A stretch of DNA of 64,000 nt, taken from Malacoplasma sp. GTDB lineage: Bacteria; Bacillota_I; Bacilli_A; Mycoplasmatales; Mycoplasmoidaceae. The stretch is from NCBI GenBank assembly GCA_021444005.1, contig JABUSB010000001.1, positions 276,235 through 340,234 on the forward strand, given 5' to 3'. This document shows, piece by piece, positions 1-53,891 of the stretch. The notes under the pieces are model-generated. The model had not been told where the DNA came from. It worked only from the letters and a program-made list of their open reading frames with translations, and searched no databases. Position 1 is the stretch's first letter; each line of letters starts with the position of its first letter. The position numbers were made by a program, and so were the translations under genes.

Positions 1-1733
1 AAAAAGAATTAAAAAGTAAATATAAAAAAGTAGATAGTTTAAATTTACACAAAACAAATAGAAGTGAAAATGCAGCAAATCGACATAGTTATGTTGGCGC
101 AATTTATAATTATGGTGAAAAGTTACTAAAAAATAAAATTCTAGATGACCTACCAAAGGAATGAGCAGAATTGCACAGACAAGGATATATCCACATTCAC
201 GATCTTGATGCTTATGGGTTAACTTATAACTGTTTAACATTTGATATTGCAAATGCATTCCCTTATGAAAATTTTGAAAACTTAGATACGACAAGCAAAA
301 TCGTAGCTGTGTTTGATTTTTTAAAAGAGCTATTTGCAAAGATGGGAAATGAACAATCTGGGGGAATGGCACTTGCCAATTTCGATATTGATTTTGCCAA
401 TATCTTTGCTAAATTAAATGTTGATTACAAAGGTAACGAATCATTATTCTATGCTTGTATTCACTCATTAGTTTTATGGTGTAATAACATCCACACAAGA
501 ATGGGACAAACAAGTTATTATGTAACATTCAATGTAGGATTAGGAACTTCTGATTTTGCAAGATTTCTAACTGCAACATTAATTGAAAGTTTTTACAATG
601 CAGGTGAATTTATTTACAAACCCAATATTGTTTTTAAAGTTCATAAAGGAATTAGTCGCTTTAAACAAGACCCTAATTATGATTTATTAGAAAAAGCATT
701 ATTGTGTACTGCAAAAAAGATGATTCCCACATATCTACTATGTGATTGTGAAGCAGATAAAAATGTTGACCCCTTAAAGTTATCAATTATGGGATGTCGA
801 ACAAGAGTAGTTGATGATGTATTTGGGATCGAGGGTGCAATCGGAAGAGGTAATATTGATAACATTTCTATTAACTTACCCCGATTAGCATTTGAAGCTA
901 ATGCAGCAAAACAAAATTTGGAAGAAAAAATAAGTGACTTTAAACAAAGATGAAATAAAGTTGCTGAATTGACAAAAGACATTTTGTTAGACCGTTATTA
1001 CAAAACTTTAGATTCAGAAATAGCTTTTTTCTCCACAAATTTAAAATACAAATTATGGTGTCAAGATATTAATGAAGTGGGATTAGCACAAACTTTAAAA
1101 CACGGAACACTATCAATTGGGTTTATAGGATTGTCAGAAGCTATTGAAATTCTTACAGGTAATAAATTTTGAAAAGATGATAATGCTTATAAACTTGCAT
1201 TAGATTTAGTTAAACTAATGCGAGATTATATTGATGCACAAAGAGCAAAATACCATCTAAATTTCTCACTACTAGCAACTAGTGGGGAATTAATAAGTGG
1301 TAGATTTATGGAATTCGATAAAAGAATTTATTCTAGTCCTGTTTTTGATAAAGGCTACTATACTAATTCATTCCACATTGATGTTGACAGTAAGTTACCA
1401 GCTTATAAAAAATTACAGCTAGAAGGTCCATTCCACCTTTATTCAAATGGAGGGTGTATATCATATATTGAATTAATCGATTCTCCGCTTGGGAATGCCG
1501 AAGGACTAGATGATTTGGTAGAAATTGCAATTAATTCTGGTGTGCATTATTTAGGATTTAATTTCCCTAAAGATGTATGTCAAAAATGTGGAGATTCTGG
1601 AGTTTTTGATATATGCCCAACTTGTAAAAGTACTCAAATAACTCGGATTAGAAGAGTTAGTGGATATTTAGAAATTCAAGATCACTTTACAAGTGGAAAA
1701 ATGAATGAGAGTAAAAACCGGAAAGCAAATTAA
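1..1733 (+). CDS. nrdD: Anaerobic (class III) ribonucleoside-triphosphate reductase, 5'-truncated by window
   Basis: Glycyl-radical enzyme that reduces ribonucleoside triphosphates to deoxyribonucleotides in the cytoplasm. The frame is open from base 3 to a TAA at 1731-1733, giving 576 visible residues once TGA codons (for example 162-164 and 951-953) are read as Trp. The true start lies upstream of the window. Seen directly: an HIHDLDAYG segment typical of NrdD, a C-terminal zinc site made of two CxxC pairs (CQKCG and CPTC), and the RVSGYL glycyl-radical loop close to the C-terminus. The order zinc site, then radical glycine, is that of NrdD. The family needs the radical-SAM activase NrdG, which is not in this window and could lie upstream. 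The next gene is a thymidylate-kinase-like protein, so the two may act in dNTP supply. Family assignment is firm. Confidence 0.93.
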
Positions 1734-2395: not shown

Positions 2396-4840
2396 ATGAA
2401 TCATATAACTTTATATAGTGCAATAAAGTATTCTAAAAGCAACCCTGCATCTTTGTTTGCAGTAATGCGATTTTTTGAAAAAGAACAGGACATATTTGTT
2501 AAACAATATAAAGATGTTTGCATCTCAATAAATACTCAAACCCAAGAAGTCTTTTTTGATAACCAGCTTGCTTTCTTATTAGATGGGGGAAAAGGTTATA
2601 TAAAACTAGAATGTATCAACCGTATTTTATCCTTAGGATATGAATTAGAAGATATTAGTGTTGGAAGTAAAATAAATAAATTTTGCTTTAAAGGTTTTAA
2701 TGTTATCTTTGTAGCTTGAAAAGAAGATTTAAGTAAATTGAAACTTAACAAAAATGAAGTTATTTATAAATCTAGACTAATTAGTGGTGTATTTGAATAT
2801 AAAACCAAAATAAACAATGGAATAGATATTTATGATTATGGTATTTTTGAAAGCAAAACTGATAATCTAATTTTTACAAAAGCAAAAAAAATTAAATATG
2901 ACGACCCTAACTTTATTATTGAAGAAAACAAAGTTATTAAATACATTGGTAAAGATAAAGTTGTCAAAATTCCAGAAGGAATTGAAGCACTTGGATCATC
3001 ATCTTTTTGAGATAACCAATATATAGAAGAAGTTATAGTCCCCAATACTTTAAAGAATATGGGAGGAGATACTTTCTATTATTGCAAAAACTTAAAAAAA
3101 ATTAATATACCCAAAAGTGTAGTCACAATTGGGAATAATCCATTTGCAGGATGTCTCCAAATCAAAATCGAAAATCAATCCCCACATTTCATTATGGAAA
3201 ATGGAGTATTATATTCTGCTGATAAACAAGCACTAATATATTGCTCTATCAAAGGTGAAGAAACAAAATTTAATGTACCAGAGGGTGTCAAGATTATTTG
3301 TAAGCATGCCTTTTATTGTTGTGACCGCTTTGAATACATATCACTACCAACAACTCTTTTAAAAATGGAAAACAATCCCTTCTCAGGATGTACAAAACTT
3401 GAATTAGAATGCAAATCAAAAACTTATGTTATTCAAGATGACGTCATTTATAATTGTTTTAAAACTGCAGTAATTGGGGTTTTAAATAAAATTAAAACAC
3501 AAAGACTTGAATTAATTGAAGGTCTTAAATCAATTAATCGCAATTCTTTCTGAAATTGTAAAGGAATCCAAACAATTGTATTACCTGAGTCTTTAGAGGA
3601 TATTGGTTACAATCCGTTTGTAGGTTGTACTAACATTCAGTTTGAAAACAAATCCCCACATTTCAAAGTAGTGGATGGAGTTTTATACAATCAGGATTTA
3701 ACCAAAATTATATGTTACCCGACTAATAAAGCAGTCGGTGTTATAAATTTATTAGATAGTGTAATCACACTAGAACGCGGTGCATTCTCGGGGTGTGATA
3801 AGATGACCCAATTAAATTTGCATAATGTTAATGTTATTAGCAAATCTTGTTTTACAAATTGTACCAATTTAAAAAAACTATATTGTAGTGATTTAATTAC
3901 ATATATTGGTGAATGAGCATTTGCTTATTGCAAATCACTCAAAGAAGTATCTGTTAATAAAGAGATAATCATTGATAACAATGCATTCTCCAATTGCAAT
4001 GCAGAGTTAATTGTAAGAAATAAAAATACTAATTATTTAATTGAATCTGAAAATCTTTATACTTTGCAAGCAATGCAAAAAAGATATCTGGCCAAAATTG
4101 ATTCAATTTTAATTGATCCTCCATACAATTCTCACATTGACTATATTGGCTATAAAGACGGTAATTATGAAGATGGTTATGCTGCTTTTATGAAGCAAAG
4201 AATTGAATTATCTTATAACTTATTGTCTGACAAAGGTTTCTTAGTAATTAACATTGATGGTGGTGAAGTGAATAACCTTGCAATTCTTTGCTGCCAATAC
4301 TTTAAACACGAATTTGTGAAAATCCATAAATGAAAAAAGAAACACCCATTCTTTGATGCCAATCGTGTAGAGCTTAATCCAAATAAAATCCAAACCGATT
4401 ATGAATACATTATTATTTGCAGAAAATCAGCGAATGCACAACTTAAAAAAATAAAACAACCTTATTTTGAAGATGGTGTTTTAAAAGAAAAAGAAACAGA
4501 TGTTCCAGAGACTTTTGATTGCTTTGGTACAACATCATCTGCAAAGGATGAAATTCAACAATTGTTTGGTACTAGAGATTATTTTTCCACCCCAAAACCC
4601 TTAAAACTAATGAAAGAATTAATTCAAGCAACCACAGATAAAAATTCAATTATTTTGGATTATTTTGCAGGTAGCGGGACAGTAGGACACGCTTGCTTAG
4701 ATTTAAATCAAGAGGATAGTGGACAACGCACATTTATTTTAGTTTGCAATAATGAAAGTGATATTTGTGAAAAAGTAACTTACCAAAGATTAAAAAAAGC
4801 AACAAATCAATATAAAAAAACTTTTGAATTTATTAAATAG
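2396..4840 (+). CDS. BspA-like leucine-rich repeat protein fused to Mod-like N6-adenine DNA methyltransferase
   Basis: One uninterrupted frame of 814 aa once TGA (2717, 3008, 3551, 3914, 4331) is read as Trp; I followed every junction and found no other stop. Residues 1-115 are an unrecognised domain. Residues about 185-540 are BspA/TpLRR-type repeats, with units such as IPEGIEALGSSSF, NPFAGC, NPFSGC and NPFVGC, plus the intervening 'VVDGVLYNQD' type segment typical of BspA proteins. Residues about 545-814 are a beta-class DNA methyltransferase: motif IV DPPYNS (574-579) precedes the SAM-binding DYFAGSGT (755-762), as in type III Mod subunits. There is no signal peptide, so the LRR part is probably intracellular. 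No restriction subunit is adjacent. The start lies 7 nt after the kinase stop, and the exonuclease follows 10 nt downstream. Target sequence unknown. Confidence 0.82.
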
Positions 4841-11522: not shown

Positions 11523-12383
11523 ATGAAACTTTCAAAACTATATTTATTAAACAATTCAGTTCATAACGTGTCATATTATCGTGATTATGATTACGATTAT
11601 GATGATGACTACTATTATCCAGAATATGGTCGGAGAAGACCGCCAAGAGATTATGGACCTCCTCCACCTCCCCCGCCACGACGTCGTCCACGACCAGAGC
11701 CGCCACGTCGTGAATCTAGAAGAAGACCAGAACCAACAATTCCAGGGAATGGGTCAAAATTATTATTCAATTTGATTAAACGCTTTGCAGAGTTATTTTT
11801 AATTATTGCTGCAATTGGAATGATCATTGGTGGTGTTGGTTACATCTTAATTAAGACTTTAAGCAATGCAACACTTAATGAGTTACAAACTAAATACCTT
11901 ATTGATGTAATAGGAGTTAGTTGGGTATTTGGGTCCATTTCAGGAATTATTTGTGCAATCTTGCTTTGTTTCCTATTTATCCTTTGTTTCTTTATGCGAA
12001 AAGGATGGTTTCGCAAAAACCGGTTTAAGATTAACATTTTGTGATTATTTTCTTTTTGCTTAATATTATTACTTTCAATTTACTTTTTCTTTGTTGCTGC
12101 AAGTCTTGTTTGAACTAATGGTTTTCAATTTCAAAATGCAGAAATAGCTTATATATTAACCTTAATTCAAACTAATGCCTTTGGAATTGTTAAAAATTTC
12201 AACCAAGTAGATTTATTTATTGCCAAAGCTGTTAATGTATTCTATCACGCAGCTTGAGGCCCAATTGCAACCGGGTGTGTTTACATTGTAATTATCTTAG
12301 TAGTATCAGCAATCGCAAGCTTTTACTTTAAAACTGTTAACCACACATTAGACGTTGCAACTGACTTTTACGAAGGATATTAA
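11523..12383 (+). CDS. Hypothetical membrane protein with Tyr/Asp-rich and polyproline/Arg-rich cytosolic N-terminus
   Basis: A 286-aa protein I do not recognise. Residues about 20-40 are a run of Tyr and Asp. Residues about 38-75 are a low-complexity stretch of Pro, Arg and Glu with seven consecutive prolines. The rest holds four hydrophobic segments (about 90-115, 135-160, 175-200, 245-270), so it is a polytopic membrane protein. TGA at 12042, 12111 and 12255 are read as Trp. The N-terminal segment is unusually GC-rich for this genome (repeated cca/cgt/cga codons). It stands alone between its own promoter and a strong terminator. The charged proline-rich tail could be a protein-binding or scaffold segment; that is inference. 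Confidence 0.75.
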
Positions 12384-12615: not shown

Positions 12616-15324
12616 ATGGATTTAACTAAAAAAATATGAATTAAAGCACAAGACAGAAACACTTTTGAAGCTTTAAAACCAGTTCTTGTTGATTTGCTTG
12701 CAAATGATTTAATTGAAGGTTTTAATGCAGAAGAGATTGCATCTGATTTACCAATTGCATTTGATTCAAATTCGATTAGTGTAACAATTAATTCACGCTA
12801 TTGTTTTGATTTATACAAAGCAATTGCAGCTAAATTCAAAGATATCATTTATTGAGTTGATAACCAATGCTTTAAATATGATATTGAGACAAACCAATTG
12901 GTTAGTTTAGATTGTGAAGACAAAAAACCAGTAGATAATGATTTTGAAAAAGAGAATACACCATTAAAAATAAAAACTGATAAAACCCCTAAAGCACATA
13001 AAAAAAGAATTGATCATCAAGAATCTGAATGGTTTGATAGTATGTTTGAATACGTTGATTCATTTTTTCATGCTTTTGAGGGTGCAGAGAGTAAACAAGA
13101 ATGGTATGATACTTCAAGTGATTGAATAGGGCAAGATAAAGAAAAAGAAGCCGATAATGCACATACAATAATTGATGATCTTCTTGCTCATAATTATGAA
13201 CCATACCATTTTGAATGTGTTTGTGAAGATAAAGAAGATAAAAATGATATGCTAGTTGAAAAAGAAGAGAATGATTTTAAAGATAATGAAGCAATTCAAG
13301 AATTAGAACCAATAGATGTTGGTGAAAATGAAATTGAACTTAGACAAGCAGTTGAAAACATTTTTGATTCATTTAATGATATGAGTGAAATTGTAAAGGA
13401 TAATAATATGGAAAAAGATTTTGAAAAAGATGAACTTAATTTAGAAAAAGATCTAAATAATGACAAAAGTATAGAAGATGATATTAAATCAATTGAAGAA
13501 AAAGATTTAATAACTCCTGAAGAACTTGAAAAGTTATTAGAACAAAGTTTGGAAACTCAATTTGAAAATATTGAAAAAGATTTTGAAGCTGAATTTGAAA
13601 AAAGCTTTGAAAAAGATGAAGACAACTTTGTTGAACCAATTGACTTTGAAAGCTTTTTAAAAGAAATTACAAGTGAAGATGTTTCAAAAGATGGTGAAAC
13701 TAATAGTTGTGATGTTAACGAATGCAAGTTAGACGAAGACGAAGCAGAAGCGGATTTTTGTCTTTGTGAAAATGAATTACAAGAAAATGCAGCTTTTGTA
13801 GAGCCAGATAATTTTGATGATTTTTTTGACAATGTAGTTAATGAAGAAGATAGTAAATGCACTAAAGTGTTTGAAACTGAAAACAAAGAAGAATCTTGTG
13901 AATGTAAATGTGAAGAAAATGAAAATCACGACTTTTTATCTTTTGATTACATTGACAAACAAATCCTTAATGATGAACCAAAAGTAGAAGCAGTTGATTT
14001 TGATAGTTTTTTTGATGATTTAAATAAGCAAGAAAGCATTAGTGTTGATGATAATGAATTTAGTTTTGAAAACAACAATGAATCATCAATTTTTGAAGAT
14101 ACTAATTCATTATTTGAAAATGAAATTGTAAAAGAAGAATTTTCTAACTTTGTAACAGCTGATGAATTTGATGCTATTTTTAAAAATGCTAGTAAAGAAA
14201 ACGAAATTGATGAAGCTTCAATTTTTGAAGAACCTTTTATTGAAGAATGCACACAAGATTCTTGTGTATTAGATAACAATTTTGCAGAAGTTAAAAAAGA
14301 GTGCGAAGAAGATTTTGATGCATATTTTGATAAACTATTTTCATCAGAAGTTGTGGATGATAGTGAATTAGTTGAAGACAAATGTGATGTTGACCAACCT
14401 GAATTTAAATTTGTTGATAATTCTGACAAACAATCTTGTAAAGATGATGTTGAATTAGTTGAAAAAAACGATGTTGTTGTAAATACTTTAGATGTTAACA
14501 ACGAAACTGCATCTGAAGAAAAATACCAAGATGATTTTGATTTAGTTTCAGAAATTATTAATAACATTGATTCAGCAGATGAATTTAAATCTGAAACAAA
14601 AAATGCTTGTGAATCTGAAGTGTTGTTTGAAGTTGATGAAAAAACTATTCCACAATTCACATATGTTGATAACAGTGACAAGTTAAGCAACCAATGTGAT
14701 TTAGAGGCACAAGAAGAATCAAAAGAAGACGTTGTTGTAACACCACTTGCGGTGGATGAAGTTTGTGAATGTGAAGCACAAGAAAGCAATGTACCACAAT
14801 TCACATATGTTGATAACAGCGATAAATTAGTTAACCAATGTGATCTAGATGTACAAGAAAAATCTAAAGAAGACGTTGTTGTAACTCCGTTAGATGTGGA
14901 TGAAATTTGCAAATGCGAAGCTGCTGACAAAAAAGAAGCTGAAGTTACAATTGATGCTGGCTTTAAAGATGATGTGATTATTGAAGACATTTCAATTAAC
15001 AAAGATTTAGATAACATCAACTTTGATGACAAAAACTTATTTGACAACTTAAGTTTTGAAGAATTTAAACCAATTGAAGATGTTGAAATCACTTCTGAAC
15101 CAATTACAGTTGTGAATAATAAAAAATCAGATGATGTTGTATTTGAAAGCACACCAAACATTAGCAAAGAAAAAGTTGCAACTGTAGATAAAGAAGTTTC
15201 AAATACTTTACAACACTTCTTAGATCAACTTAAAAAAGAAAAAGAAAAATTACGTCAAAGAAGAGAAAATTTAGAAAAGAAAACAATGAAAGTAAAAGCA
15301 ATGTTTTCTAAATTACAAAGTTAA
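12616..15324 (+). CDS. Large acidic repeat protein with C-terminal coiled coil, putative cytoskeletal/scaffold protein
   Basis: A 902-aa protein, not assigned to a known family. Residues 1-95 look like a small globular domain. A short aromatic-rich patch follows at about 135-175 (five Phe, four Trp and two Tyr in about 40 residues). Then comes a very acidic Asp/Glu-dominated region to about residue 840. The last 60 residues (LQHFLDQLKKEKEKLRQRRE...) form a basic coiled coil. Inside are two repeat families: five copies of an FDxFFDxL-like unit (13627-14340) and three copies of a FTYVDNSDK unit (14395-14934). There is no signal peptide or membrane segment. TGA at 12632, 12853 and 13123 are read as Trp. 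Its composition resembles the acidic proteins of mollicute cytoskeletons and the coiled-coil operon at 34764-58516, but no homology is claimed. Confidence 0.8.
13627..14340 (+). repeat. Five degenerate 'FDxFFDxL' protein repeats
   Basis: Repeats begin near 13627, 13795, 13984, 14149 and 14308. Their cores read IDFESFLKEI, DNFDDFFDNV, VDFDSFFDDL, DEFDAIFKNA and EDFDAYFDKLF. Three of them open with FVEP or FVTA. Each is followed by an acidic linker. The spacing is 159-189 nt, so units are about 53-63 residues. Confidence 0.7.
14395..14934 (+). repeat. Three tandem protein repeats with core 'FTYVDNSDK'
   Basis: Copies start at 14395 (diverged: PEFKFVDNSDK), 14647 and 14791. The last two are exactly 144 nt apart and nearly identical over 48 codons, with shared NQCDL, SKEDVVV and TPL-VDE blocks. 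The near-identity of copies 2 and 3 suggests recent duplication or homogenisation. Confidence 0.85.
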
Positions 15325-34679: not shown

Positions 34680-34763
34680 AGTTAAGATATATACAATTAA
34701 GAGAAATAAAAGAGAAATTTTTATAATTTCGCATTTATTTTGTTTTGTTTATTGTGTACAAAT

Positions 34764-37700
34764 ATGACTAAAATAGAAAAGAATTATGATGTATTTTTTC
34801 AAAAAAATGCAAAAAACTTTGCCAATGACTATTTTTTGAAAAAAATAAAAAATAACTATGATGTAGTGGGTCAATTTTCATCAGATTTAAAGCAAAAATC
34901 AAGTGATAACCTTACCCCACAAACTAGTGTGAATGGGCAACAAAATAGTGCTACTAATTCTTTATCTTCTAATTCCTTGCAAAATGTCACACAAAACACA
35001 AATATATACCCTTCTATCAATCACGAAATCAAAGATACAAGAACAGTAATTAATGGTGGAAATTCAAACTCTAATCTTGAATCTAAAACTTATGATGTAA
35101 ATCCAATTAATAGTAATTCTGTTGCTGATGTTTTAGTTTCTAATTCTAGTGTTAACGATTTTCAAAACACTAATGTTGATACTGCTGTTGCAGACACTGA
35201 AATTAAAGATGTTACAGAAGACAATTCTGTTAATGTACAAAGCTTAAATGAAACAGATTATGCAGCTGCTGTAACACCAGTTGCTATCGAGCCAGAAAAA
35301 GAAGTTCAAATTCAAGAAGTTGAAGCAATTGCAAACAATTCACAAGATTTTCAAATTGATTCAATTCCTAAAACCTTTGATTCAGATTTTTCAGATTACT
35401 TAGATGATAATAATGATTTTGATTACCAAAATCTTTCTAATCAGTTAGATTATGAAACTAATAATTATGAAAATCTTGATTTGTATGATTATGAATCAAG
35501 TGAAAACCAAATTAACTATTTAAATGAAACTAATGCTAGTTTTGAATCACAAAACACTTCTTTTTATGAAGATGATGAAGGCGAAATTAAAGATATCCAA
35601 AACTTATTATCAAATTTAGATTTGGATATTAATGATCTAAATTCTGATAACCAAGAATTTTTTGAAGATTATTTTAATTATTTAACACGTCAAAAAATTA
35701 AAGAAATTGTTGAGAAAAAAATTGGTTTTTGTGATGAACAAATGCTTGATCAACTACATTCGATTTCAATTGATGAAAATTGAAAAGAATTAGATGTTGA
35801 AAAGTGATTGCTAAATCCAGAAAATATTAAAAACTTTAAAAATAAAAGTGCAGCAATCTCAAATGTTAAAGTTTCTGATTTGAAGTTAAACGAAGTTGAA
35901 TTGCAAAATCAAATTCCTACTTTTAAGTCTTCTAAAATTGAAGATGTTAATGCTTTTGTAATAAATGAATCAAATTCAGTTAAAGAAGTTAATAATACAA
36001 ACAACAACAATACTAATATTGAAACTGCTATCAAAAAAGAAAATGATTTGTTAGAAAAAATTGTTGATATTTTGTCAGCTAACCAAAAAAACCAAAAAGA
36101 TGTCCAAGACAAAATAATTCAAAACAAAACCAATTTTGTAAAACATAACAATTCTAAAAGATACTTTAAACCTAAACACAAAAAGGTTGACCTACCATTA
36201 GAATATTTAATCAAGATTACAAAATTACTAGAAAACAAACAATCTAGAAGCAATCGTCAATCTAATCACAAACAATTCATTAATGTTTCTTCAAATCCAA
36301 ATGACCCAGTTTTAAACAAAATTGGGATTAACCAAAAGCTTTTAGAAACTAAGGTTAATGACAAACTTAGTGTTTTAGAAGAAAAGATTGGTAATTTAAA
36401 CAATAACTTTAGATCTACCTTGATTGAAGAAAACTACCGGGTTTTGTTAATCAATAACCAAACTGAAACTTTAAAAAACTATTTGAATGAAAGATTAGCA
36501 AATCTTAATAAACCAAATCACTTAGTTTACCAACAACCCGGGGTAAATATTGAATTATTAAATTCAAAAAACCACGAAAATAAACCTCATATTAAAGAAA
36601 TTAAAGAAGAAAAAGGTTTAGATAATAAAGATTTAAGCAAAGATCTAAATACTTTTAAACACGAAATTTATAATAAATACAATGATTTAGATTCTAAAGT
36701 TAGTGCATTTAGCCAAATAAATTCAGATATTGCTAATAAATTTAAAGATTTTGAAAACTTAATTAAAACATTTGATAACAAAACTGTGCAAAAACAAACT
36801 AATGGTTTTGTTTTCCAAGAATTTGATTATCTTAATCCAAATGTTGTTAAAAATGATGTTGGATTTTCTAACAACCAAATAAAAGATAATGATATTAAAT
36901 CTGAATTTAATGCTGATTTTTTAAAAAATTTAGATACTAAAGTTGAAGAATTACCAAAAACAGAAGCAAATACTGATTTTAAAACTGATATCATTGATGA
37001 ACTTCTAAATGATAATTTAGCTGATTTTGGTGGACAAATAGACGATATTAAACCAAATTTAATAGCTGAGAAAATCGAAGTTTTTCAGGATAAAAAAGAG
37101 GAATTACTAATAAATGATGATCTTGGATCTGTTGATACTAACACGATAAATAATGTAGAAGAAGACTCACACACTTTATTTGAATTGGATCTTTTTGAAA
37201 ATAATAATGAAATTGATGAAGCTACTGATTCAATTAGTATAGTAGAGCCACAACAAGAAGATTTTGAAAAATCACAATCAGAAGAAGAAAAAGAAGAGGA
37301 AAAAGAAGAAATCTTAAATCTTGATGATACTGATTTTCTTGAATTAAATGAGATGCAAAAATTGTTAAACCAAGAAATTGAAGCAGTAGTTTTAGAAGAT
37401 TATCAAACTGAAAACGAAGTTACAACAAAACCACAAAACGAAGCTAATTACCTTGAAGAGTTTGACACTTATGATTTTAAAATTTGAGACATTACTAATA
37501 ATGATGAACAAGACGATAATTTAGAATTCAATCAAATTGATTTAAACAATAGTGATGATTTTGAAAACTTCTATGTTGATAATGAATCAAATACAGAAGA
37601 TACAAATTTTTCAAATCAAGCTACAAGTGATTTTGAAAATGATTTCAAAATAGTTTATGAAAGCAATGACGTTAGTGATGAATTTAATGTTTTAGTAGAC

Positions 37701-38579
37701 AACAACAATTCAGAAGAAACTAAAGTTGAAAATGAAATTAGTTTTGTAATTGATGAATTTGATGTTTTTGAAAATGTTGATTCACAAGAAGCAGAAGACC
37801 AAAAAAAAAGCACACAAAACACTAGTTTAGATTTGCTTGAAAATGATGCTGAAACAATTGATTATGAATTTGATGAAGACAAGATTTTAGATAATCTTAA
37901 CAAACTTGAAGACCAAGAATTAGAATTTGCAATTAGTGATAACCAAGATTTTGCAGTTAATGATCTTGTTGCTGAAGATAAATTGAGTAATGAGTGTTTA
38001 GAATTAGAAGCAACAAAATTTGTAAATTATGAAAATAAATTTATGTCTTATGTTGGTGTTACTCGAATTAACACCAATGAGTTTAAGCAAAATATTTCAA
38101 ATGATGGTTTAGATGATATCAATGCTTCTACAAATTCAGAAGAAAGCAGCATTAGTGACCTTAGTTTAGATAACTTAGAAGAAACTAAGTTAAATCAAGT
38201 AAACACAATGCCTCAAACACAAGAATTTGACCAATTTGAAGGTGACAAAGAAACTAAAATTGATTTTTTGAGCGATCCAATGGAAAACACATTGTTTGTC
38301 GATTACCAAAACAACTACTGGTTAGATGAAAATATTGTAACAAAGAGCAATAATGACAATTATAATTTTAATTTAAAGGAGTATCAATCAGAAAAGGATG
38401 AGAGCAAAAAATTAATTAAGAATCAAATTTTTGAAAAAAATGAATCTGAAATTGAAACTTTAAAAAATGAAATGCTTGAAGAATTAGATGATGTAATTCA
38501 AGATTTAAGGAATTTAAATGTCAAAGAAGGCCAAATTACCGGTTTTGAAGATTTGAAAATTAAAGTAAGAAATATTTAG
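34764..38579 (+). CDS. Large acidic Asn/Asp-rich protein, first gene of the coiled-coil operon
   Basis: A 1,271-aa protein of unknown family. An in-frame TTG 24 nt upstream is possible, but ATG 34764 gives a clean start MTKIEKNYDV. The first 330 residues are low-complexity, rich in Asn, Ser and Asp. A basic island of Lys/Arg/His lies around residues 455-500, followed by a short predicted coiled coil (about 530-580). Then come several hundred strongly acidic residues, including a Glu/Lys run near 830-850, and a final helical segment (ESEIETLKNEMLEELDDVI). TGA codons at 35781, 35805 and 37485 are Trp. There is no signal peptide or membrane helix. The next gene starts 9 nt after its stop. A structural role is inferred from composition and neighbours only. 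Confidence 0.82.
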
Positions 38580-38588
38580 AGATTGATT

Positions 38589-41500
38589 ATGAAATACGTT
38601 AATTTAGAGAAAATTAGAGAAGTTTTATTAAAAATAAGTCAGAAAAAACAAAATATTGAAAATACTTATTTTCAAACTTTGACTCACTTTAACGAAATTC
38701 TAAAATCTGATCCAAATAATAAAGACTTACTTATCAAAATTAGTGTTCGCAAAAAAACTTTAGATGACTCTGTTAACAAAATCATTATTTATTTAGAAAA
38801 TTTAACAATCGCATTATCTAATGCTTTTGAACAAATTAGTAATAATCAAGAATTATTAGATGATGGCGAAAATCAAGAATACTTGATTACAAAACCAATT
38901 ACCCCACAAGATTTAGACACTCAATTCGAATATGAAAAAGAATTAAGAAATTACAAAAGTAGTCAATCATTAGATTTTAGTATCTTGGAAAAAGAAGCTA
39001 GTGAATATGACAAAATCTCTAGCGTTTTTGATACTGTTATTAATGAAATTAATAAAGAATTTGAATATAGTGCCCCAAAAGAAGTGCGTAATGGACTAAT
39101 GAATGATAGTGAATATGTTTTTGATGACAAGTTGAATTTAATTGAAACTAGTCTTAGAAATGAAATTGAAAACAATTCAGTTGGTACTAAATTCTTGGAA
39201 GAGCAAAACAAATATTTAATGGATACATTAAATAAAGTTGCTACACAAAATGCTTTAACCCCACAAGGTAAAAACTTAGATAGTGAATTATATTTTTCAA
39301 CACTTGATAAAACTGTAAATGCTGCAGTTGAAAAATTTGGTGTTGCTTCTGAAAAGATGAGCAATGCAATTAATGTTTTATCAATTAACCAAATTGAAAG
39401 CCTTGAAAAATTATCCCTTCCATTAATTAAATCTCTTGAATCTACTTTGAAATCATTGACTCAAGATTTAGAAGTTACTAGAAATGAAAACAACTATTAT
39501 CGTACGCAATTGGATGAATATGCTAAAACAATTGCTGTGCTTCAAAAAGAAAACAATCTTAAAGAAAATGAGTTAAAAAGTTCTTATGATTCTTGACTTT
39601 CAAATTCAAGAAGAGTGAGTGAATTAGAAGAAATTGTTAATGAGCAATCTAATGACATTAAGTCATTTTATGAAGAAAAAAATGACATTATCACAATGCT
39701 TGAACAAAAAATTGTTGATACTGGGAAATTTATCAACAACATTATTTATGAAAAAGAATTATTAATTGAACAAAATTCGAATTTATTTGATGAAGTGAAC
39801 CGCTTAAAACAACAAGTATCTGGTGATTTAGATGGTTATATTAACACAATTTCACTTCAAGATTTAGTAGAAAAAGAGGCTAATAAAATTGTTGAATCCA
39901 AGATTCAAAGTTTAGTTAACCGTTACAAAGAAGAATTAGAACAAATTAAATCAGATTCGATAAGTTACTTTTTAAGTGTTAAAGATAATGATGAAAGAAT
40001 TTTTGAAAAACTAATTGAAGAAAAAGAACAAAACCAAAATGATGTAAGTGATGCTGTAAAAACACTTGAAACAAAAATTCAAAAGTTGGAAGCAAAGTGA
40101 GAGTACGACGCAAAACTAAAACAATCAACACAAGACTCATTAAATGATTTGAATTTATTGTTGGGTGAAGGACCATATTCGATGGTAGAACAAGAAAAAA
40201 CTTTTCTATCTTCTAAGTTTGACAAATTAGAACAAAGAATTGAAGAATCACTTGAAAGAGTCAAAACTTTAGAAGACGAAAAAGAGAAAGCACCAAAGCC
40301 AAAAACTTTTGATGAATCACAATTGGATGATCTAATTTTAAGTTCAAAAATTTATGGTGATATTACTAACCAACTTGTTCACAAAGACTTTGAAATTGAT
40401 GCCCTAAAATCTGAAAATTTTAGAATCCACCAAGAAAATTTAGCAATTAGTAGTGTACTTGATGAAACAATTGCCAAAATTGCTTCTAACAGCAATAAAA
40501 TGAGTGAAATTGAAACTTTGTTAACTAAACAAGAATATGAATTTATGATGCTTGATGAAGAAAAGAATCGGGTAATTGATAAATTGTATAATGCAATTAA
40601 TAAACAAGATGCAACTGCGGTTGAACAAATTGACAATTTAACAATTTTAAACAAATATGACTTTTCTAAATTTGCCAAATCAACAATTGATGACTATTTT
40701 CAAAAAAATGAAAATAGTCAAGTTCCAAGAGTTGATTTGTTAGATTATGTGAAACAAGAAGTGGCTAAAGTGATTGATGAAGAAATTGATGCACTAAAAG
40801 CACAATATGAACAAAAACTTAAAGCACTTGATGAAAAATATGATTACACACTGTTGCCTAAATTTAGACAACCTGTAATTTTTTCTCAACAGCCTTTTAG
40901 CAAAACAATCACTTTAGATTTTCCAAAGATTGATGATAAATATTTTGATTTAGAAGAAAATCTAGAGCTAAAAAAAGATTTACAAGAATATTTTGAATCT
41001 TTAAAGAATACAAATGAAGACATTGTAGTTGAAGAACAAATTGTTGATGAAGACCAAGAAACTCAAGAATTTGATAAACCTACTCTTAACTATGAATACA
41101 TTGGGGAACAAGACAACTTATTAGATGTTACTTTTGAAAAACAATTAAATCCTTGGGAAGAAAAAGAACAAACTCCACAAGTTGTTAAAAAAGCAGTTAA
41201 CAAAATTATTAAACACACAATCACAAACCCTAAAGAGAATGAATTAATTTTCAAACTTTCTAACCGTAATGATGATTTAGAAAACAAAATTAAAAATTTA
41301 CAAAAAATTATTAATGACAAATTCAATCAAGAAATTCAAAAGAACCGTGAAAAAATTGAATTAACTTATAACCAACCAGTTGTAGAATCTGCTCCAATTG
41401 AGTTTATTGCACCAGACTATGCAGCTATTCACAAAGATCTTTATAGTAACCAAATCAACCAAAATCAAACAATTAACAACAACCTTCAAAAAATGCTTGT

Positions 41501-41762
41501 TGATTTTAAAGTTGAACAAAACCAACAACTTGATAATTTAAATCAAAAAATTGATAGCATTAACAAAAACATTAGTGAAACACACATTAGTAATGAATCA
41601 AACTGAAGTGTTTTCGAAAATAGTCTTAAGGAGAACAATAATTCACTTTTAGAAAGAGAAATCATTAATAGTACTAACAGGCTTTTAAATTTAGAAAAAG
41701 AATTACTAGTTTTAGAAACTGAAATTATTAATGAGGAAAAGAAAGTTATTGTGGAATTGTAG
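38589..41762 (+). CDS. Coiled-coil protein, second gene of the operon
   Basis: A 1,057-aa protein, mostly helical coiled coil, starting MKYVNLEKIREVLLKIS. Long heptad stretches cover about residues 300-480 and 500-640, interrupted by acidic linkers (about 780-850). The segment around 39621 (SELEEIVNEQSNDIKSFYEE) matches the signature found repeatedly in the 3,256-aa protein of this operon. The last 150 residues return to Gln/Asn-rich coiled coil. TGA codons at 39594, 40098 and 41604 are Trp; the gene ends at TAG 41760-41762. The next ATG follows after a single nucleotide, implying translational coupling. No enzyme motif, signal peptide or membrane helix seen. Confidence 0.83.
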
Positions 41763-44120: not shown

Positions 44121-47100
44121 ATGAAAAACAATAAAAAAAATACAAATAAAATTAGTGAATTGAAACAAAAATTAAAGAATGTTGTTGAAGAATTTTACGA
44201 TATTGAAAGTGATAAAGCAAATTATGATTTGTTTGATCTCTCATCCGATAATGAAAAATTCTTAGAACAACAAAATTTGGAACTTGATAAAAGTTTAACA
44301 GCAATCGAGGAAGATAATTCAAAGCTTTTCTCAAATGTTTATGCTCTCAAACAAGAAGTTGAAAAAGCACTAGCTAGTTTAGACAAAGATTCTCATTTTT
44401 TGAACCTTTTCAAACAATTTATTAATTTTCAGCAGAATAACAAATTAAGTGATTTTGATTTTTCAAATGAAGATATCAAAAAAGATAATTTTGACAACTT
44501 GCACAACTCTAATATTTCATCTCTAAAGGATGAAATTTTGCAATTATTAAAAATTGAAGACAAAACTGCAAAAGAATTAGATTCTAAAAGTGATTCTAAT
44601 CAAAACCAATTAAACTTAGAAAACTACATTTCTTTAAATTTATTTAATTCTTTACAAGATGTTTTTGAAAAAGAAAATGCCAAAATTGCTGTAATCAAAG
44701 AATCATTGCAAGATTTTGTAAATGATTTATCACTTGATAAATTTAATAGCTTTGAAAATCAAAACAAAATTAGCAATAAGATCAAAACTTTAAAAAATGA
44801 GTTTTTTAGAAATATTAATGCTGTTTTTGAAAACAATGATGCCGTTTCAACTCGCAAAGAAGCTAAAATTGTTAAAGATAGTTATAAAAACACAATTACT
44901 TCTTTATATGATGAATTAGAAAAAAAATTAATTAGCTTTATTGAAAGCAATTCTTTCAATAGTGCACCAACCTTGATTGAGCAATCTAAAAACTATGTTG
45001 ATGTTAGCAATATTGATGTTTTATTTAAAGAAATTAGTGAATTAGAAAATAAGATCAATCTTCTTAAAGCTTCACACAACACTACTGACTTTTTTAGTGA
45101 ATTACTAAAGAATTTTTTGTTTTTAAATAAGATTGATGAAAGCTCAATTAAAAAAGAATTAGATGACAGATATTTTGAAATTTGTGAAAAATTTATTAAA
45201 AACATTGAATTAAAAAATAGCATTATTAAAAAATCAATTGATAATTTCAATGTTTACATTGTTGATAACTGTCTAAACTATGTTAGAAAAATTAATGATT
45301 TTTATGCTAATTTCAAAATTAATAATGCAAATTTAAATAGTATTGAATTATCAAACAATAATTTCTTTATTCAAAAAGCAATTGAATGTTTTGAAAGTTT
45401 AGCAAATAAATCAAAAGCCATTTTTGATGAATTAGCAATACTTAGCTCTAAATTACTTAGTGACATCTCTTTAGAATCTTTTAAAAATAAGCAAATTGAT
45501 TTTTCTTGTTTCATTAACTTAATCCAACAAAATGTTAAAACTTTTTCAAAAAACATTGAAATGGTTATAACAAGTTTTAGTAATGAAGTTAACAAACTTA
45601 CAGGATTGCCAATTTCTGGTATTGAATTGATTCGTAACGAAATCCCTGCTAAGGTTAGTGAAGTTTTAAGCTTTATTTCAAAAGTTCCTTTAGAACTTGA
45701 AGAAATTTTAGCAGATGCAAAATCAGCTAACATTGATTTTTACAAATTTAAATTTTCAAAATTAGAGCACGTTTACAACATATTACAAAACTATAAAATT
45801 GAAACAATTGATAGCAATTTGGGCTACAACCAATCTAATAATTATATTGATGTAAGATTAGAACGTTTGGAAAGACAATATTCTAAAATCTTTAATTTGT
45901 TAGACCCAATTGCTGCAAGCATTAATAAACCAAATCAAGAGTTGCAAAATTTTAAACAAAATATTGACCAAAAAATTGATGATTTAATCAATAAGTTAGC
46001 ATCTGATCGTAAAGATTATGAAACCGAGCATAATGATATTATTCGTGAAATTCTTAAACAAAATGAAATGGGTAAAGAAAACGTTATTAATATCATTAAA
46101 AGTTTTGAAGAAAAAAAATTACATTTAATCTCAGAAGAAGCGCAAAAAAGAGTTATTGAAAACAGTAGTAAGTTAGTCGAATTAGAAAACTTGCTAGCTT
46201 TACAAAACCAAGAAATTGAAAGTTTATTATCAGAAAAAAATGAATTCATTAGTGAAATAGAAGATATTTTAATTCACAAAAAACACAAATTAACTGATGA
46301 AAAAATTGCTGATCTAAAAGGATCAATCAATGAAGTTATTACAACATTCAATAACCGGATTTCTGATTTTGAATATAATTTAGATCGCAAACTAAGTTCA
46401 ATTGATTTAGAAGCAGTTTTGGAAGATTCACAAAATACACAACAAAAAGAGTTGTTAAACGAAATTGAACAACGTTTAACTGCAAATTATGGAATTGTTA
46501 AAGAACACGTTAAACAAGACTTTAACCAAATTCTAGATAGTGTTAATAACTTAAATGTCGCTTATGCTGAATTTGCTAATAAAACCCCAAACTATGAATC
46601 ACGATTCAATGAAATTAATGAACAATTTAGCCAATTCTCATTCTTGTTAAAAAACATTACTGAAGCACTACAAGCTAAAAACAGCGAGCAATACGAAGAA
46701 GTTAATGAATTAGTTAAGAGTTTAAATACTAAATTTGAAGGCTTAATCCAAGGGTTAAAAGAAGAAAACAGCAAAACTTCTGCATTATTTAATAAAAATG
46801 CCAACAAGGCTAGTAAAAGACTGAAAAGTATCTTTAATAAATCAATTTCTGAAATTAATGAGAAATTCAACACTTTATTATCTGAAGTAAAACAAGAAAA
46901 CAAATCACTTGAAATTAAACAAAGTGATGTTTTAGATACAGTAATTGCATCTAACCAAGCTCAAAAAGAACAAATTGCTTTCTTGATTAATGAAATTAGC
47001 AACATCAACCGTGACTTCTTATCTGAAATGGAAGCAAAACGAATTAATTCTGAAAACCAAAAACTCATTGAACTTGAAAGATTAATTAATTTACAAAATG

Positions 47101-50100
47101 ATGAAATCGAAAGCTTAGTTCACGAAAAAGACGACTATATCCAAGAGGTAAAAGATTTCTTAATTAATAAAAAAGATGAATTAACTAACCAAGGGTTAAT
47201 TGAATTAAAAGTTAATTTGAATAATGTTGCTGATGATTTCAACAAAAAAATTGAAGAATTGGAATATGCTTTTGACCGTAAGATTAGTGAAATTGATTTA
47301 AATACAATTGATCAAACAATTTTGAATAATCAATCAGAATTCTTAAAGAAAGTTGAGGACACACTAATTATCAATTATGACTTAGTGCGTAATGAATTTA
47401 AACAAAATATTGGTCAAATATTAAGCAATATTAATGATCTAAATCTAACATTAGCAAATTCTAATTTCCTAAAAGATTTTGAAAACCGATTCAATTATAT
47501 TGACCAACAATTTGAACAATTCAGATACTTACTAAAAACTGTAACTGACGGATTAATTGATAAAAACAATAAATTATCATTTGAAGTTAATAGCATTATT
47601 GATGATCTAAACTCTAAATTTGAATCATTAATTAAAGGTATTAAAGAAGATAATTTAGCTTCAATCAATTCTTTAACTACCTTCTTTAGTGAAAACAATT
47701 TAAGTTTAAAAAATGAAATTCAAAGTGATATTAGTTCATTCTCAAGTCGTTTAAACAATTTGAGTGACGAATTTAAAAATACAGCAAACTCAATTGCAAA
47801 TGATCAATTAGACAAAATTAATTATGTTATTGAATTAAATAACAAGACCCGTTTTGAAATCTTAAATCTAATTAAGAACATTGAAATTAATAATGAAAAT
47901 TTCTTAACAAAATTAGAAGAAAAGAAAAATATTGAAACTAATTTAAAACTTAAAGAATTAGATGAATTAATTGAATTACAAAATAATGAAATCGAAGCTT
48001 TATTGGCTGAAAAAAATGAATTTATTTTTGATTTGGAAAATTATCTAATTACTAAAAAAGACCAATTAGATAATAAAAAGATTGCAGAATTAGAACGATC
48101 TGTTGAGGCAATGATTTCTTCACTTGATTACAAAATCATTCAGTTAGAAGTTAACTTTAACAACCGCTTTAATGAATTAGATTTAAAACCAATTGAAAAT
48201 GCTTTTGCTAGCCAATCTGATTTATTAAACTCAATTGAAGAAAAATTATCTAATAACTATGAAATTGTTAAACAAGAATTAAGTCACGACATTAACCAAG
48301 TGTTAAGTGGTGTTGGTGAATTAAACACTTTATATAAATCATTCCCATTCGAAAAATACGATTCAAAATTTGTTGATATTAACAACCAATTTGATCAATT
48401 TAGATTCTTAATTAAAGATGTAATTAATAGCAATTTAAAAAACATTGATGAAACTAAAAAAGTTGATGAATTAGTTGATGTGATTAATTCTAAATTTGAT
48501 GTGTTATTCAAAAACCTAAAATGAGAAACAATTAAATCTATAAAATCACTTAATAACAAAATTAAAAACTCAGAATCACGTATTTCTAAACAATTAGATT
48601 CTTCAGTTGACAAGGTTAATGCGAAATTTAAATTATTTGTTGATGAAATTAAAAACCAAAACAAAAACTTTGAAAATAGTCAACTTGATACAATTTATGC
48701 GATTATTGAAGGCAATAAAGCCAATCAATATGAAATTTTGAGATGCATTAAGAACTTAGAGTTATCTAATGCTAACTTCTTAGATGAAATGCAATCACAA
48801 AAATTAAATTATGAAAATTCAAAACTTAAAGAATTAGACCAATTGATTGAATTGCAAAATTCAGAAATTGAAGCACTAATCACTGAGAAAAATGAATTTA
48901 TCAATGATATTCAATCATTCCTATTTGATAAGAAAAACAAAATTGATAACCAAAACATTTTAGATTTAAAAGTAACTGTTGATAATGCGATTTTAGGATT
49001 TAATGAAAAAATCGATAATCTTGAAAAAGACTTTGATGCTAAACTTGCTAAATTTGATTTGAAATCACTATCTGATTTAATTTCAAGTGAACAAGCACAA
49101 TTCTTTGATTCTGTACAAAACTCATTGACTTACAATTATGAAATTGTTAAATCTGAATTCCAAAGTAATTTAAGTGAAATCATTAATAGTATTGTTGACA
49201 TCAATGCTAACAATGATGCTAAATTTGAAAGCTTAAATGAACAACTTGATGGATTTAGATTCATTCTAAAAGACTTGGTAGAAAGCTTTAATAGAAACAG
49301 CAAAGAATCTGCAATTGATTTAGCTGCTGTTACACAAAACTTAGAAAATCTTTTTGAAAAAGAAATTCAAAAAGTGAAATCTGAAGCTTTTTCAAATAAC
49401 AAATTCATCGTTTCTAAAATTAATAAGATAAACAAGAAATTATCTAAAAATATTGATTCAAATATTTTAAATATGAACACTAAGTTTGATGATTTAATTT
49501 CCCACATTCAAACACAATCAGACTTAGTTATTCAACAATCTAATATTTTAGAAACATTGATTGAAGTTAACCGTCAAAGCCAAAAAGAGTTAACTGATTA
49601 CATCACAAATTTAGAAAGTACAACACTACAAATTGCAGATGAGTTTAAAGAAATTCAAATGGAAAAACAAAGCTTGAAGATGAAAGAATTGGAAAGCTTA
49701 ATTGAATTGCAAAATACTGAAGTTGAAGCTTTAATTCAAGATAAGAATGATTTAATTTCTGACATTGAAAGCTTCTTAAGAGAAAAGAATGAAATGATCA
49801 CAAACCAAAACTTTGTGAAATTAGAAAACACAATTAAAAACATTGCTGATTGCTTTGACAAGAAAATTGGTAATTTAGAAGTTGATTTAGACACTAAATT
49901 AGCTTTATTTAATGCAGATTTCTTAAAGCAAAATACAGAATTTTACAAAAACAATTTAGTAACTGACATTGAAAAACAATTAAGCTCAAATTATGAAATT
50001 GTGCGAAATGAATTTAAAGTTGAATTGAGCAAAATTTTAGATAGTGCTGAAACTAAATTTGACAAATTTGCATCACAACAAGAAGAAATTAACCGTAGTG

Positions 50101-53100
50101 GTTTATTAGAATTGAATTACCAATTTGATGCATTTAAAGATTTAGTTGTTAGAAAACTAGAAATGATTAACGATCCTTCAAATTCAATCCAAATAAAAGT
50201 TGATGAATTGTTAAACAACATCACTATTGAATTTAAACGACTTGTAAATACATTAGCTTCAGAATACGAAGTTTCTAATGAAAACTTAGTTAATAAGGTT
50301 GATGAATTAAACCATTACTTAATTGAAAACCTTAATGATAACTTGTTAAATGTTGATAAGAAATTCGATAATTTTATCGATACTGTTAATAAAAAACTAC
50401 AAGACTTTGAAGTGCAACAAAGTGATTTGATAACAACTTTATTCAATGCTAATGAATTGTTTAGAAAAGATGCAAATGATGCAATTGCTAGAATCGAAAA
50501 AATGATTCCCCAAATTTTAGATGCAAATTTATCAAACCGTTACAACCTTGACATTGATAACTTAAAGAAATTGGATGAATTAATCGATTCGCAAAACCAA
50601 GAAATTAACGAATTGATTAATGAAAACAACGATTACATTGATAATGTTGAAAAGTTCTTAAGAAATTCTCAAGATGCTTTTGAAAATGAAAAACTAAATA
50701 AAATTGAAAAATTAATTAGTGATATCAACGATAAATTTGATGCAAAAATTAAAAACTTTGCTGATGAATTTAATGCTAAATTAAACCAATTTAATTTAAA
50801 TGATGAAGATTCACTAGAAAATGAATCAATTTTTGGAGTGTGTAAAAAACTTGAAAGAAATTATAGTCTTTTACAACAAGAGTTCACAAGTAATTTTGAT
50901 GCAATTTTTGAAACTTTAAAAAACTTGGATATTAATGAAAACAAAAACTACATTGCAAATGAATTAGAACAATTTAAATATGAAATCATTGATAAGTTTG
51001 AGGCACACGTCGATGAAATTAATACTAAATTTGCAGGTTTAGTAAAAGATGTTGAAAACACACAAGTGGATGCAATTAGTTTAATTTTGGATTCAAATAA
51101 AATTAATCAAAAAGAAATTAGTTTATTTTTAGATAACCTTAAAAATTATGGTGATGATTTAGTTGCAAAGTTTGGGTTTAATGATAAACAAAAAATGGTT
51201 GTTTTACTACAAGAATTAAAGGATTTAATTGAACTTCAAAGTGAAGAAATCAAATTATTCTTGTCTGAAAGAGAAAGATTTATAGTTGAAACCGAAACTT
51301 ATATTAACAAAATCTTAACTGCAAAGAATTTCTATGCAAATACTCAAGAAATTGTTAATGATTTTGTTGCACCAGTTAAGAATGTTTTAAATGAATTCAT
51401 TAATAATTTTGGTAAAAAACTATCAACTTTAAGAATGGATATGACTAAACGCATTTCTTTAGTTGTAAGAGATTCTAAAATGGTTTCTAAAGATTTTAGA
51501 GATAAAGTTTATTTAGTGCAAAAAAATCTTGCTGATAACTATGATTTCTTAAATCAAGACTTCAATTTATTTTTTGAAAAAATTAGTGTTATGATAGCAG
51601 ACTTGGAAAATGGGTCTTGCAACCTAACTTTTTATGCGAAAATTGATGAATTACAAGCTAACTTTAATAAAGTAAAAGAAATCGATTACCCCCTTGATAA
51701 GATCTTTAAAGACAATGCTTTGTTTAACCAAATTGATGATTTTGTTTCTGCCAAATTTGAAGCAAACAAAAACCAACTAAACCCCGAAATTTTACAAAAA
51801 TTAGATGATCTTGATAACTTAGAATTAAATACAAAAATTAAAAACGCTAATACTTGATACCAAGACTTATCGTCTTACATTGAAAACAAAAACAAAACAA
51901 CCACAAACTATGTTTCTTCAAAACTTGAAGATTTAGAAAAAAAAAGCAATAAAACACCTTTTAGCAACCAAGTTAATCAAAAAGACTTAGAAAAAACTTA
52001 CCAACAAGTTTTAAATAAGTTTTTAGAAATTTCCAATTACATTAGTCTTGTTAAAACAAATAGCTTAAAACTAAGTTCAAAATTGACTGCTAATTTAGTT
52101 TCAGACACACAAGTTAATGACATCTTTAAATGATTCAAGAAACTATTAGATTCACAAAACGAATTAATTGATAAAGTCCTTTTGCAAAACCAAAAATACA
52201 CTAATTCAATTAATGCAATTTACAATGACAACAATTTAAATGAAAATGCTAATGATTTAGAAGAAATTCTAGAATTGCTAGAAAAAAACACAACTTCTAT
52301 AAAACAAGAACTTAAATCATTTGAGTTAGAAATTAGCAAGTTAAACAGCATTATAATCGAAGCAAAATCGTCTCAAGAATTTAGCAATGACTTCTTATTA
52401 GATTTAAATGATGCAATTAGAAATAACATTGATATTTTAGGAGGTTTGTTCATTAACTTTAAAGTTAAAAAAGATGCAAATTTAATTAAACTACAATGTA
52501 TCGAAGATTGATTAGCACAAATAAATAATAGTGTTAAGAGTTTAACTAATTCTCAATTCAATCAAGAAAACTTTTCTAAATTCAATAATGAAATTGACAA
52601 AATTAAATCCTTACTTCTGTTTTGTCACCTTGATTTAATCCTTTTAAAAGAATGTGAAATTGAAAAGACATATGCTAACAGTTGCGAAAATAGTGATGCA
52701 TCAGTTTTAGAATTTAAAAAGATTGTCTTGCTAGAAGACTTAATTAAATACACAAAAGATTATTTAAAAAACATCTACTTGCAAAAAAACAAACTAATTA
52801 GTTTACTAACACAAGACAAAAACATTGATAACTACTTAGTGGAATTAAAAGTTAACCAATTCTATGAAAACTTGTTTACAAAACTTTGTACAGACCAAAT
52901 TAAAGATCTTAAAGAAATTGTTAATAAATTTAACCAAATCAACTTTAAAAATAATTCAAAATTAGAAGAGTTATTATCTGCTAATGCAATAAAAAACAAA
53001 AAGGAATTATATGCTAAAGTTGCTCAATTGGAATTAAAGATTGGCCAACTATTTGATGTAATTGAAAATAAGAAAAAAGAATTTATTGATTTAATCTCTG

Positions 53101-53891
53101 CTAATTGATTGGATGATGACAAAGCAGTTAATGCAATCTTTACTCAATTTGAAAAAGCAGAAGCCAAAATTAAAAATGAATATGAGCTTGAATTAAATGC
53201 TTTTAAAAACCGTATATATGATTGAAAAGCTGCAGAGTTAGACAATTATAAACAACACGTTAGTGATCTTGAAACAGAATTAAATGAATTAAAAAATAAT
53301 GAATCACTAAAATCAAATAAAAACGATTTTGAACCGCTTGATAATTTAGTTGAAGAATTAAATCTAGAAATTGATTCTTTTGAACAAGAAAGAGAAAACC
53401 AATTCAAAATCGCTAAATCAAAACTTGAATACCTAAATTCTTTAGTTAGTCAAAATCAAGAAGAAATTGTAAACAATGTTAATGTCGATAAATTCAAATT
53501 AAATTTAAATAATGAAATTAAGCAATTTATTGAAGAAGAATTTAATGAATTTGAAAAAACATTTACTAAGAATTTAGCTCAAGTTAAAGCTGGACTTAAT
53601 TTAATGAAAGCAAGTCTAGAAGTTGAAGCTAATGATAGTGATGCTGAAATTGACAATCCCGAATGGTTTAAAAGTTTTGATGATAAGTTAAAAAACATTG
53701 AAGACGAGATATTCAAAAACGATAACCATTCTCAAAAAAATGTAATTCAAAACTCACATAATAATATAAAATTAAATGTAAGCAATGAGAAAATTAAAAA
53801 TTTTATTGTTGAAACAGAAAAAAAGAAAAAAGAGATCGAAGGGTTTTACCAAAAAGTTGAAGAACTGATAAATCATAATAAAAATAATTAA
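44121..53891 (+). CDS. Giant 3,256-aa coiled-coil repeat protein, fourth gene of the operon
   Basis: A single frame of 9,771 nt; I read through every TGA (48522, 51855, 52131, 52509, 53106, 53222) and found no other stop. Residues 1-680 are helical and irregular. From residue 687 to about 2,580, seven modules repeat about every 290 residues, each opening with a variant of ELxxLIxLQxxEIExLxxEK. Later in a typical module come NYEIVKxEF and FxQFRFLLK blocks. The last 670 residues are further coiled coil ending in a Lys/Glu-rich tail. There is no signal peptide, membrane helix or enzymatic motif. At this length an extended helix would span several hundred nanometres (inference), comparable to a mycoplasma cell. 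The likely role is a filament, spacer or spring in an internal skeleton. Confidence 0.86.
46179..51860 (+). repeat. Seven tandem protein modules of about 290 residues
   Basis: Module starts, taken at the Glu/Lys of the ELxxLI signature, are 46179, 47070, 47955, 48831, 49686, 50568 and 51213. Spacings are 891, 885, 876, 855, 882 and 645 nt (297, 295, 292, 285, 294 and 215 residues). All are multiples of three but vary, so these are diverged protein repeats rather than recent DNA duplications. Conserved blocks within modules: the opening signature, a 'F-x-x-K-I-x-x-L-E' block about 60 residues later, NYEIVK near +115, and an F/R-F/Y-L-L/I-K block near +160. The sixth module is shortened and the seventh most diverged. 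Confidence 0.88.

Follow-up and report, generated by a model that had tools for sequence, protein, structure and literature searches.

An 814-amino acid protein encoded within a 64,000-nucleotide stretch of a Malacoplasma sp. genome (here called the window) joins an N-terminal domain (NTD), a BspA-type LRR array and a methyltransferase core in one reading frame. Its gene closes the core of a cassette that also encodes the radical-SAM activase NrdG, the ribonucleotide reductase (RNR) NrdD and a kinase. Computational analysis establishes that the fusion exists and arose in a single clade, that the cassette exists and is transferred as a unit, and that housekeeping copies make its RNR and kinase redundant. 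The anatomy of the module is well supported, whereas its function is inferred. The cassette is best, if tentatively, explained as a mobile module of defence type that derives from restriction-modification parts and has a dNTP branch of its own; in it the 814-amino acid protein would be the effector or the recognition component. The coordinates are collected in Table 1.

Table 1. Features of the cassette region in the window
Feature	Position	Strand	Evidence
nrdD, short class III (anaerobic) ribonucleotide reductase, no ATP-cone	1..1733	+	Pfam NRDD 3e-101; start upstream of window, partly masked (L032)
Divergent thymidylate-kinase/deoxynucleoside-kinase-like protein, 191 aa	1813..2388	+	Pfam Thymidylate_kin 2.8e-14
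NTD-LRR-methyltransferase fusion, 814 aa (code 4)	2396..4840	+	Reading frame, Pfam, homologues, AlphaFold2, tree
NTD, predicted restriction-nuclease-like fold, catalytic residues not conserved	2396..2890 (~residues 1-165)	+	AlphaFold2, structure match, PADLOC, active-site comparison
BspA-type LRR array	2948..4018 (~residues 185-541)	+	Pfam LRR_5; AlphaFold2 pLDDT ~87-96
Minimal beta-class amino-methyltransferase core, no Mod-type TRD	4019..4837 (~residues 542-814)	+	Pfam N6_N4_Mtase; fold match; Mod alignment
DEDDh (DnaQ-like) exonuclease, 424 aa	4851..6125	+	Pfam DEDDh_C 5e-7; synteny

Anatomy of the fusion protein

Read with table 11, the gene is interrupted by five in-frame TGA codons, whereas table 4 gives an uninterrupted frame of 814 amino acids in which W108, W205, W386, W507 and W646 are encoded by TGA. 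The host assembly, 984 kb in 13 contigs, is of the Mollicute type, and TGA must be read as tryptophan in other long genes of the window too, so that code 4 is the code of the organism rather than a sign of decay, and the gene has been recoded to it. The initial annotation had placed a BspA-type LRR domain and a methyltransferase in one frame, and this is borne out by Pfam, since both LRR_5 (2.1e-47) and N6_N4_Mtase (7.2e-36, residues 568-782) match the protein far over their curated cut-offs. AlphaFold2 gave a confident model of the whole protein (mean pLDDT 88.4, pTM 0.82). The annotation was also right that a secretion signal and an adjacent restriction gene are absent: judged from the sequence, the protein has no obvious hydrophobic N-terminal signal and is cytoplasmic in character, and the neighbours of its gene are nrdD, the nucleotide kinase, the DEDDh exonuclease and YitT. 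This anatomy corrects an easy mis-annotation, in which the LRR would be taken for a surface protein and the Mod-like part for an orphan methylase.

The first 115 residues had been set apart as a further unassigned domain. There is indeed an additional domain, but it extends over ~165 residues, and we assign it a type IIB/IIG nuclease-like fold in degenerate form. Modelled alone, the NTD reached a pLDDT of 85. It matched residues 2-188 of the BsaXI RM subunit, the N-terminal endonuclease domain, with a VIA Z of 8.6 over 130 residues at 3.4 Å, the next unrelated entries having a Z of 4.0; by Foldseek alone the match was weak (E 0.22), and a sequence profile of the NTD found no match in the PDB. 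The PADLOC model for the type IIG REase-MTase N-terminus was matched by 13 of 20 family members (best 1.1e-10), the window copy not being among them. No NTD was found in plasmids by tblastn. Cutting by BsaXI needs E73, D90, E105 and K107 (PMC11997821). In an alignment with the type IIG enzyme at L069, which is remote and carries some uncertainty, ITLE...SLDV...IEVK of that enzyme faces ISVG...KFCF...VIFV of the window copy; the BsaXI-type catalytic positions are absent from the window copy and are not conserved across the NTD family. The link in fold and sequence to BsaXI and the type IIG enzymes, together with the loss of the catalytic positions, argues with moderate strength for a degenerate nuclease-type domain, which is the least certain of our structural assignments given the remote alignment.

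The catalytic motifs of the methyltransferase are intact (DPPY at 574-577 and FAGSGT at 757-762), and its nearest solved folds are those of type III Mod proteins (6k0w, 7dsu and 4zcf; Z 27-28). As an alignment control we used a complete Mod of E. faecium (L070), which has a DEAD/DEAH helicase partner alongside. Compared with it, the core lacks the N-terminal ~95 aa, a target-recognition domain (TRD) of ~110 aa and the C-terminal ~90 aa. Between the two motif blocks, where the ~110 aa are missing, only ~35 aa are left, well short of the ~100 aa taken to define a TRD. The label "Mod-like" thus holds for ancestry but not for the N-terminal region, TRD and C-terminal region of Mod. The role proposed earlier for the LRR array, a platform for interaction or recognition, is plausible for a methyltransferase that has no TRD of its own.

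A substrate other than duplex DNA, such as single-stranded DNA, RNA or a nucleotide, would explain both the lost TRD and the linkage to NrdD and a dNMP kinase, and the beta-class fold also resembles that of the RNA m6A enzyme METTL3, at a lower score (Z 13). The nearest relatives by sequence as well as by fold are nevertheless the DNA Mod enzymes, and we consider such a substrate quite unlikely.

Conservation and history of the fusion

Search of other genomes revealed the same fusion at 15 further loci, most of them in genomes with the standard code, so that the concern that homologues might always be encoded as separate genes can be set aside. Full-length homologues of 58-65% identity were found among contigs of gut and rumen Bacillota (L021-L026), where tryptophan is encoded by TGG and no in-frame TGA occurs, and one of 46% identity in a related Mollicute (L002/L033). 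Further fused copies (L048-L054 and L056) came from two samples of ~390 genomes each. At three loci, L034 (G016), L028 and L036 (the human-gut temperate phage PV036423), two separate genes encode the halves, with an overlap of a few bases. In the NTD-LRR tree all 16 fused proteins fall into one clade (support 100/99), as would be expected if two neighbouring genes had fused once; the clade was not recovered on the less resolved NrdD tree.

Between close pairs, dN/dS was 0.06-0.23 in the NTD, the LRR array and the methyltransferase, all of which are under purifying selection; for the junction it could be computed in three pairs and was 0.09-0.13. These low values, the junction included, indicate that selection maintains the two halves as a single product. 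A sequencing or assembly error, or two products read as one, could be argued from the three loci with separate overlapping genes, but the same fused frame recurs at 16 loci, in independent assemblies with differing genetic codes, the fused homologues form one clade, and the junction is constrained. Chance fusion and the sequencing error feared initially were therefore rejected, and an artefact of either kind is very improbable.

Two loci depart from this pattern. At L055 the NTD-LRR protein and NrdD are kept, and no methyltransferase was found within the 20 kb read; at L027 the methyltransferase half is disrupted by frame breaks. From these two loci, methylation may not be the core activity of the system. 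The variant cassette at L055:2403-13754 encodes an NrdG-HAD phosphatase fusion and the NTD-LRR protein. It also encodes a glycosyltransferase-Sel1-LRR-metallophosphoesterase fusion, an AAA_14-LRR protein and an LRR protein fused to the 140-aa upstream domain described below, which points to fusion with LRRs as a recurring feature of the system.

The cassette, its nucleotide enzymes and its mobility

The methyltransferase had been described as solitary, which does not hold. The order NrdG - NrdD - kinase - LRR was found wherever a locus offered enough sequence, and a metallophosphoesterase often separates NrdD from the kinase; at L025 and L026 the kinase reading frame is present and overlaps the LRR call, the ORF filter having missed it. 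NrdG has ~150 aa, NrdD ~565 aa and the kinase ~190 aa. In 12 aligned cassette copies of NrdD the YNC and MGCRT cysteine motifs, the Zn-site cysteines and the glycyl-radical sequence RRVSGYL are all conserved. In the window genome, NrdG is at L032:13628 and NrdD continues into the window; a masked N stretch between them (L032 ~14090-14240) hides where the one ends and the other starts, making their exact junction unreadable. The kinase was matched by the PADLOC models PDC-M51B (3e-13) and VakA (1e-12).

The window genome has a second, better-scoring Tmk (G000:C8), and its one other RNR that was found is a class I/II large subunit. Likewise, a second RNR (a longer NrdD or an NrdE-type enzyme, the latter in G147 and G000) and a second, better-scoring Tmk were present in 12 of the 12 cassette genomes tested. 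With the housekeeping enzymes accounted for, the cassette RNR and kinase are extra, dedicated copies. The DEDDh exonuclease that follows the cassette in the window is also found there at L024, L025, L026 and L051, not at all loci. Another conserved protein, of ~570 aa, follows the cassette at L021:8389-10113 and L022:8398-10098; neither Pfam nor PADLOC matched the L022 copy.

Upstream of NrdG, in divergent orientation, the window genome and L048 encode WYL-family proteins (PADLOC 9e-17 and 1e-14) that share 38% identity. WYL regulators co-localise with phage defence systems (PMC9122601). In L022-L026 and L071 the upstream regulator is of the XRE type. A 140-aa protein with no Pfam match lies upstream in 11 loci, the phage included; the family has the motif KCGHVG...YIP and in most of these loci directly precedes NrdG (L029:2824-3252, with homologues in L028, L036 and L048-L055). 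A conserved 270-aa protein of no confident family was also seen upstream (L029:680-1492), with homologues in L036 and L049-L054 and a duplication in L053. The flanks further contain DUF4238 (6 members), AAA_21/AAA_15, HNH and Fic proteins; these were counted with no control region and give weak support at most, and ABC/AAA models match many housekeeping proteins. Elsewhere in the window, a 3256-aa frame (44121-53891, plus strand, code 4) has no Pfam family above cut-off, and the large neighbouring frames at 34740-38579 and 38583-41762 are also without a family. In the product of 11523-12383 (plus strand), apparent membrane segments come after an N-terminal region rich in Tyr/Asp and Pro/Arg.

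The pairwise distances of NrdD, kinase, LRR and methyltransferase are mutually correlated (r 0.60-0.94; 12 genomes) and follow those of rpoB far less (r 0.21-0.30). The cassette genes thus co-evolve without tracking rpoB, which indicates that the cassette moves as a unit. The window rpoB is nearest to G029 (0.71 identity) and G016 (0.68), whereas the window cassette is nearest to standard-code Bacilli such as G235 (NrdD 0.70, rpoB 0.50). No full-length match was found in the nine other genomes of the genus that were sampled. In two genomes of the same genus (G005 and G008) the gap between PTS and YitT, the genes flanking the region here, is ~150 bp, against ~10 kb in the window genome, where PTS ends near C5:272525 and YitT starts at C5:282665; the order of the two genes is opposite in G005 and G008, so that this is a variable locus rather than a clean empty site.

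Viral carriage was also observed. In the temperate gut phage PV036423 the cassette adjoins two serine recombinases, and a rumen viral contig (L071) carries two serine recombinases, XRE, NrdG, NrdD, metallophosphoesterase and kinase before it ends; at L051, recombinase pieces lie 1-2 kb from the cassette. In IMG/VR only the NrdD alignment gave a match, which was L071. The other queries, namely the alignments of the fusion and of the split LRR, the single phage NrdD and phage LRR proteins, and the NTD, returned nothing, the pattern-based scan being weak for such queries. We conclude that the cassette is a conserved package moving between gut bacteria and gut phages.

This carriage beside recombinases could mean that the cassette is a phage-type nucleotide-supply cargo, a moron of mobile anaerobic NrdDG and kinase whose LRR-methyltransferase protects or marks the DNA of the element (anti-restriction or counter-defence). 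NrdD and NrdG are common phage auxiliary genes (PHROG 487 and 626), the catalytic residues of NrdD are intact, and a DnaQ exonuclease follows the cassette in some loci. On the other hand, most copies found lie in bacterial genome contigs rather than phage records, a WYL or XRE regulator is atypical for a plain nucleotide-supply operon, and among 80 viral NrdD loci the kinase was present only in L071 and the LRR in none (L071 ends before it). We regard cargo as an unlikely account, though the strongest of the alternatives. A solitary epigenetic regulator is less probable, on a par with a non-duplex substrate. The LRR-methyltransferase would then methylate a motif and switch host genes, including its own nrdDG operon, while the LRR senses a cell protein or ligand. 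The intact methyltransferase motifs, the lack of a predicted nuclease activity and the lack of an adjacent Res agree with such a regulator; it sits poorly with a cassette that is patchily distributed, transferred as a unit and carried by phage, and it leaves L055 unexplained.

Proposed role and comparison with known systems

The defence-type reading that we favour would work as follows. The cassette, NrdG - short NrdD - (metallophosphoesterase) - dNMP kinase - NTD/LRR/methyltransferase with a dedicated regulator (WYL here, XRE elsewhere), would derive from restriction-modification parts. In a methyltransferase that lacks a TRD, the NTD and the LRR solenoid most likely supply the targeting; they would replace the TRD and hold the enzyme to a DNA or protein target, which would explain why the two genes became coupled and then fused. 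The methyltransferase would then mark adenine (or cytosine-N4) in DNA. That the module has its own RNR, activase and kinase suggests a need for dNTP supply during its action, and an NrdD that lacks the ATP-cone, with its activase and kinase, could sustain dNTP synthesis outside the usual allosteric control once the system is switched on. The most likely role would be defence of the host or of a resident prophage against other mobile DNA, by methyltransferase-based exclusion and not by cutting.

Such a role best fits the types of regulator, the flanking genes (counted as above), the patchy spread and the carriage by prophages, with phage cargo or counter-defence second. Several points count against it: we know of no private RNR among the parts of defence systems, nucleotide-metabolism genes are common phage cargo, PADLOC lacks such a gene set, and L055 and L027 put methylation as the core activity in doubt. 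A bolder form of the defence reading, which we hold as doubtful, is a hitherto undescribed kind of mobile immunity: an intracellular LRR receptor would carry a TRD-less DNA methyltransferase and be wired to its own anaerobic RNR and kinase, so that solenoid recognition and dNTP control act jointly against invading DNA. Should the reading hold, an LRR recognition platform would steer a DNA-modifying enzyme inside bacteria in conjunction with dNTP synthesis dedicated to it. This would make it possible to test how LRR arrays recognise targets in the cytoplasm of prokaryotes, and what a mobile element gains by bringing a ribonucleotide reductase along.

No system with this gene set is present in PADLOC, and among open-access papers we found none that describes it. 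With type III Mod (EcoP15I, Mbo45V, H. pylori Mod) the fusion shares the beta-class core, with DPPY preceding FAGSGT, and the nearest fold, but the Mod-specific regions are absent and an NTD-LRR part is attached. A Res helicase-nuclease was absent beside all cassette loci read; generic ResIII helicases occur in the genome, and a Res elsewhere is possible. With the type IIB/IIG enzymes (the BsaXI RM subunit, PADLOC REase_MTase_IIG) the NTD shares the fold region of the endonuclease domain, whereas the BsaXI catalytic residues have no conserved counterparts, the Mod-like beta-class core is C-terminal and an LRR array lies between. Membership of type III or type IIG was rejected on TRD, Res and active site alike. 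BspA-type LRR surface proteins have the LRR_5 repeats in common with the fusion (PDB relatives such as 4fs7), but the fusion has no visible signal peptide and is joined to cytoplasmic nucleic-acid enzyme domains.

The cassette resembles BREX in having a methyltransferase without an active nuclease and, in the window genome and L048, a WYL regulator upstream; in BREX the WYL regulator BrxR occurs in many, not all, systems (PMC9122589, PMC9122601). No BREX model (PglX, PglZ, BrxC) was among the PADLOC matches listed for the cassette proteins, which include NrdG, NrdD, kinase and LRR instead. A radical-SAM protein near a thymidylate-kinase-like protein recalls prokaryotic viperin (pVip) with VakA, with weak cross-matches, but the radical-SAM protein of the cassette is an NrdG activase beside a real NrdD (PHROG 626 at 6.5e-29 against pVip at 2.4e-5). 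In outline the cassette would act as a nuclease-free methyltransferase exclusion system, but we conclude that its gene set is distinct from type III, type IIG/IIB, BREX and viperin systems and encodes a module of putative function.
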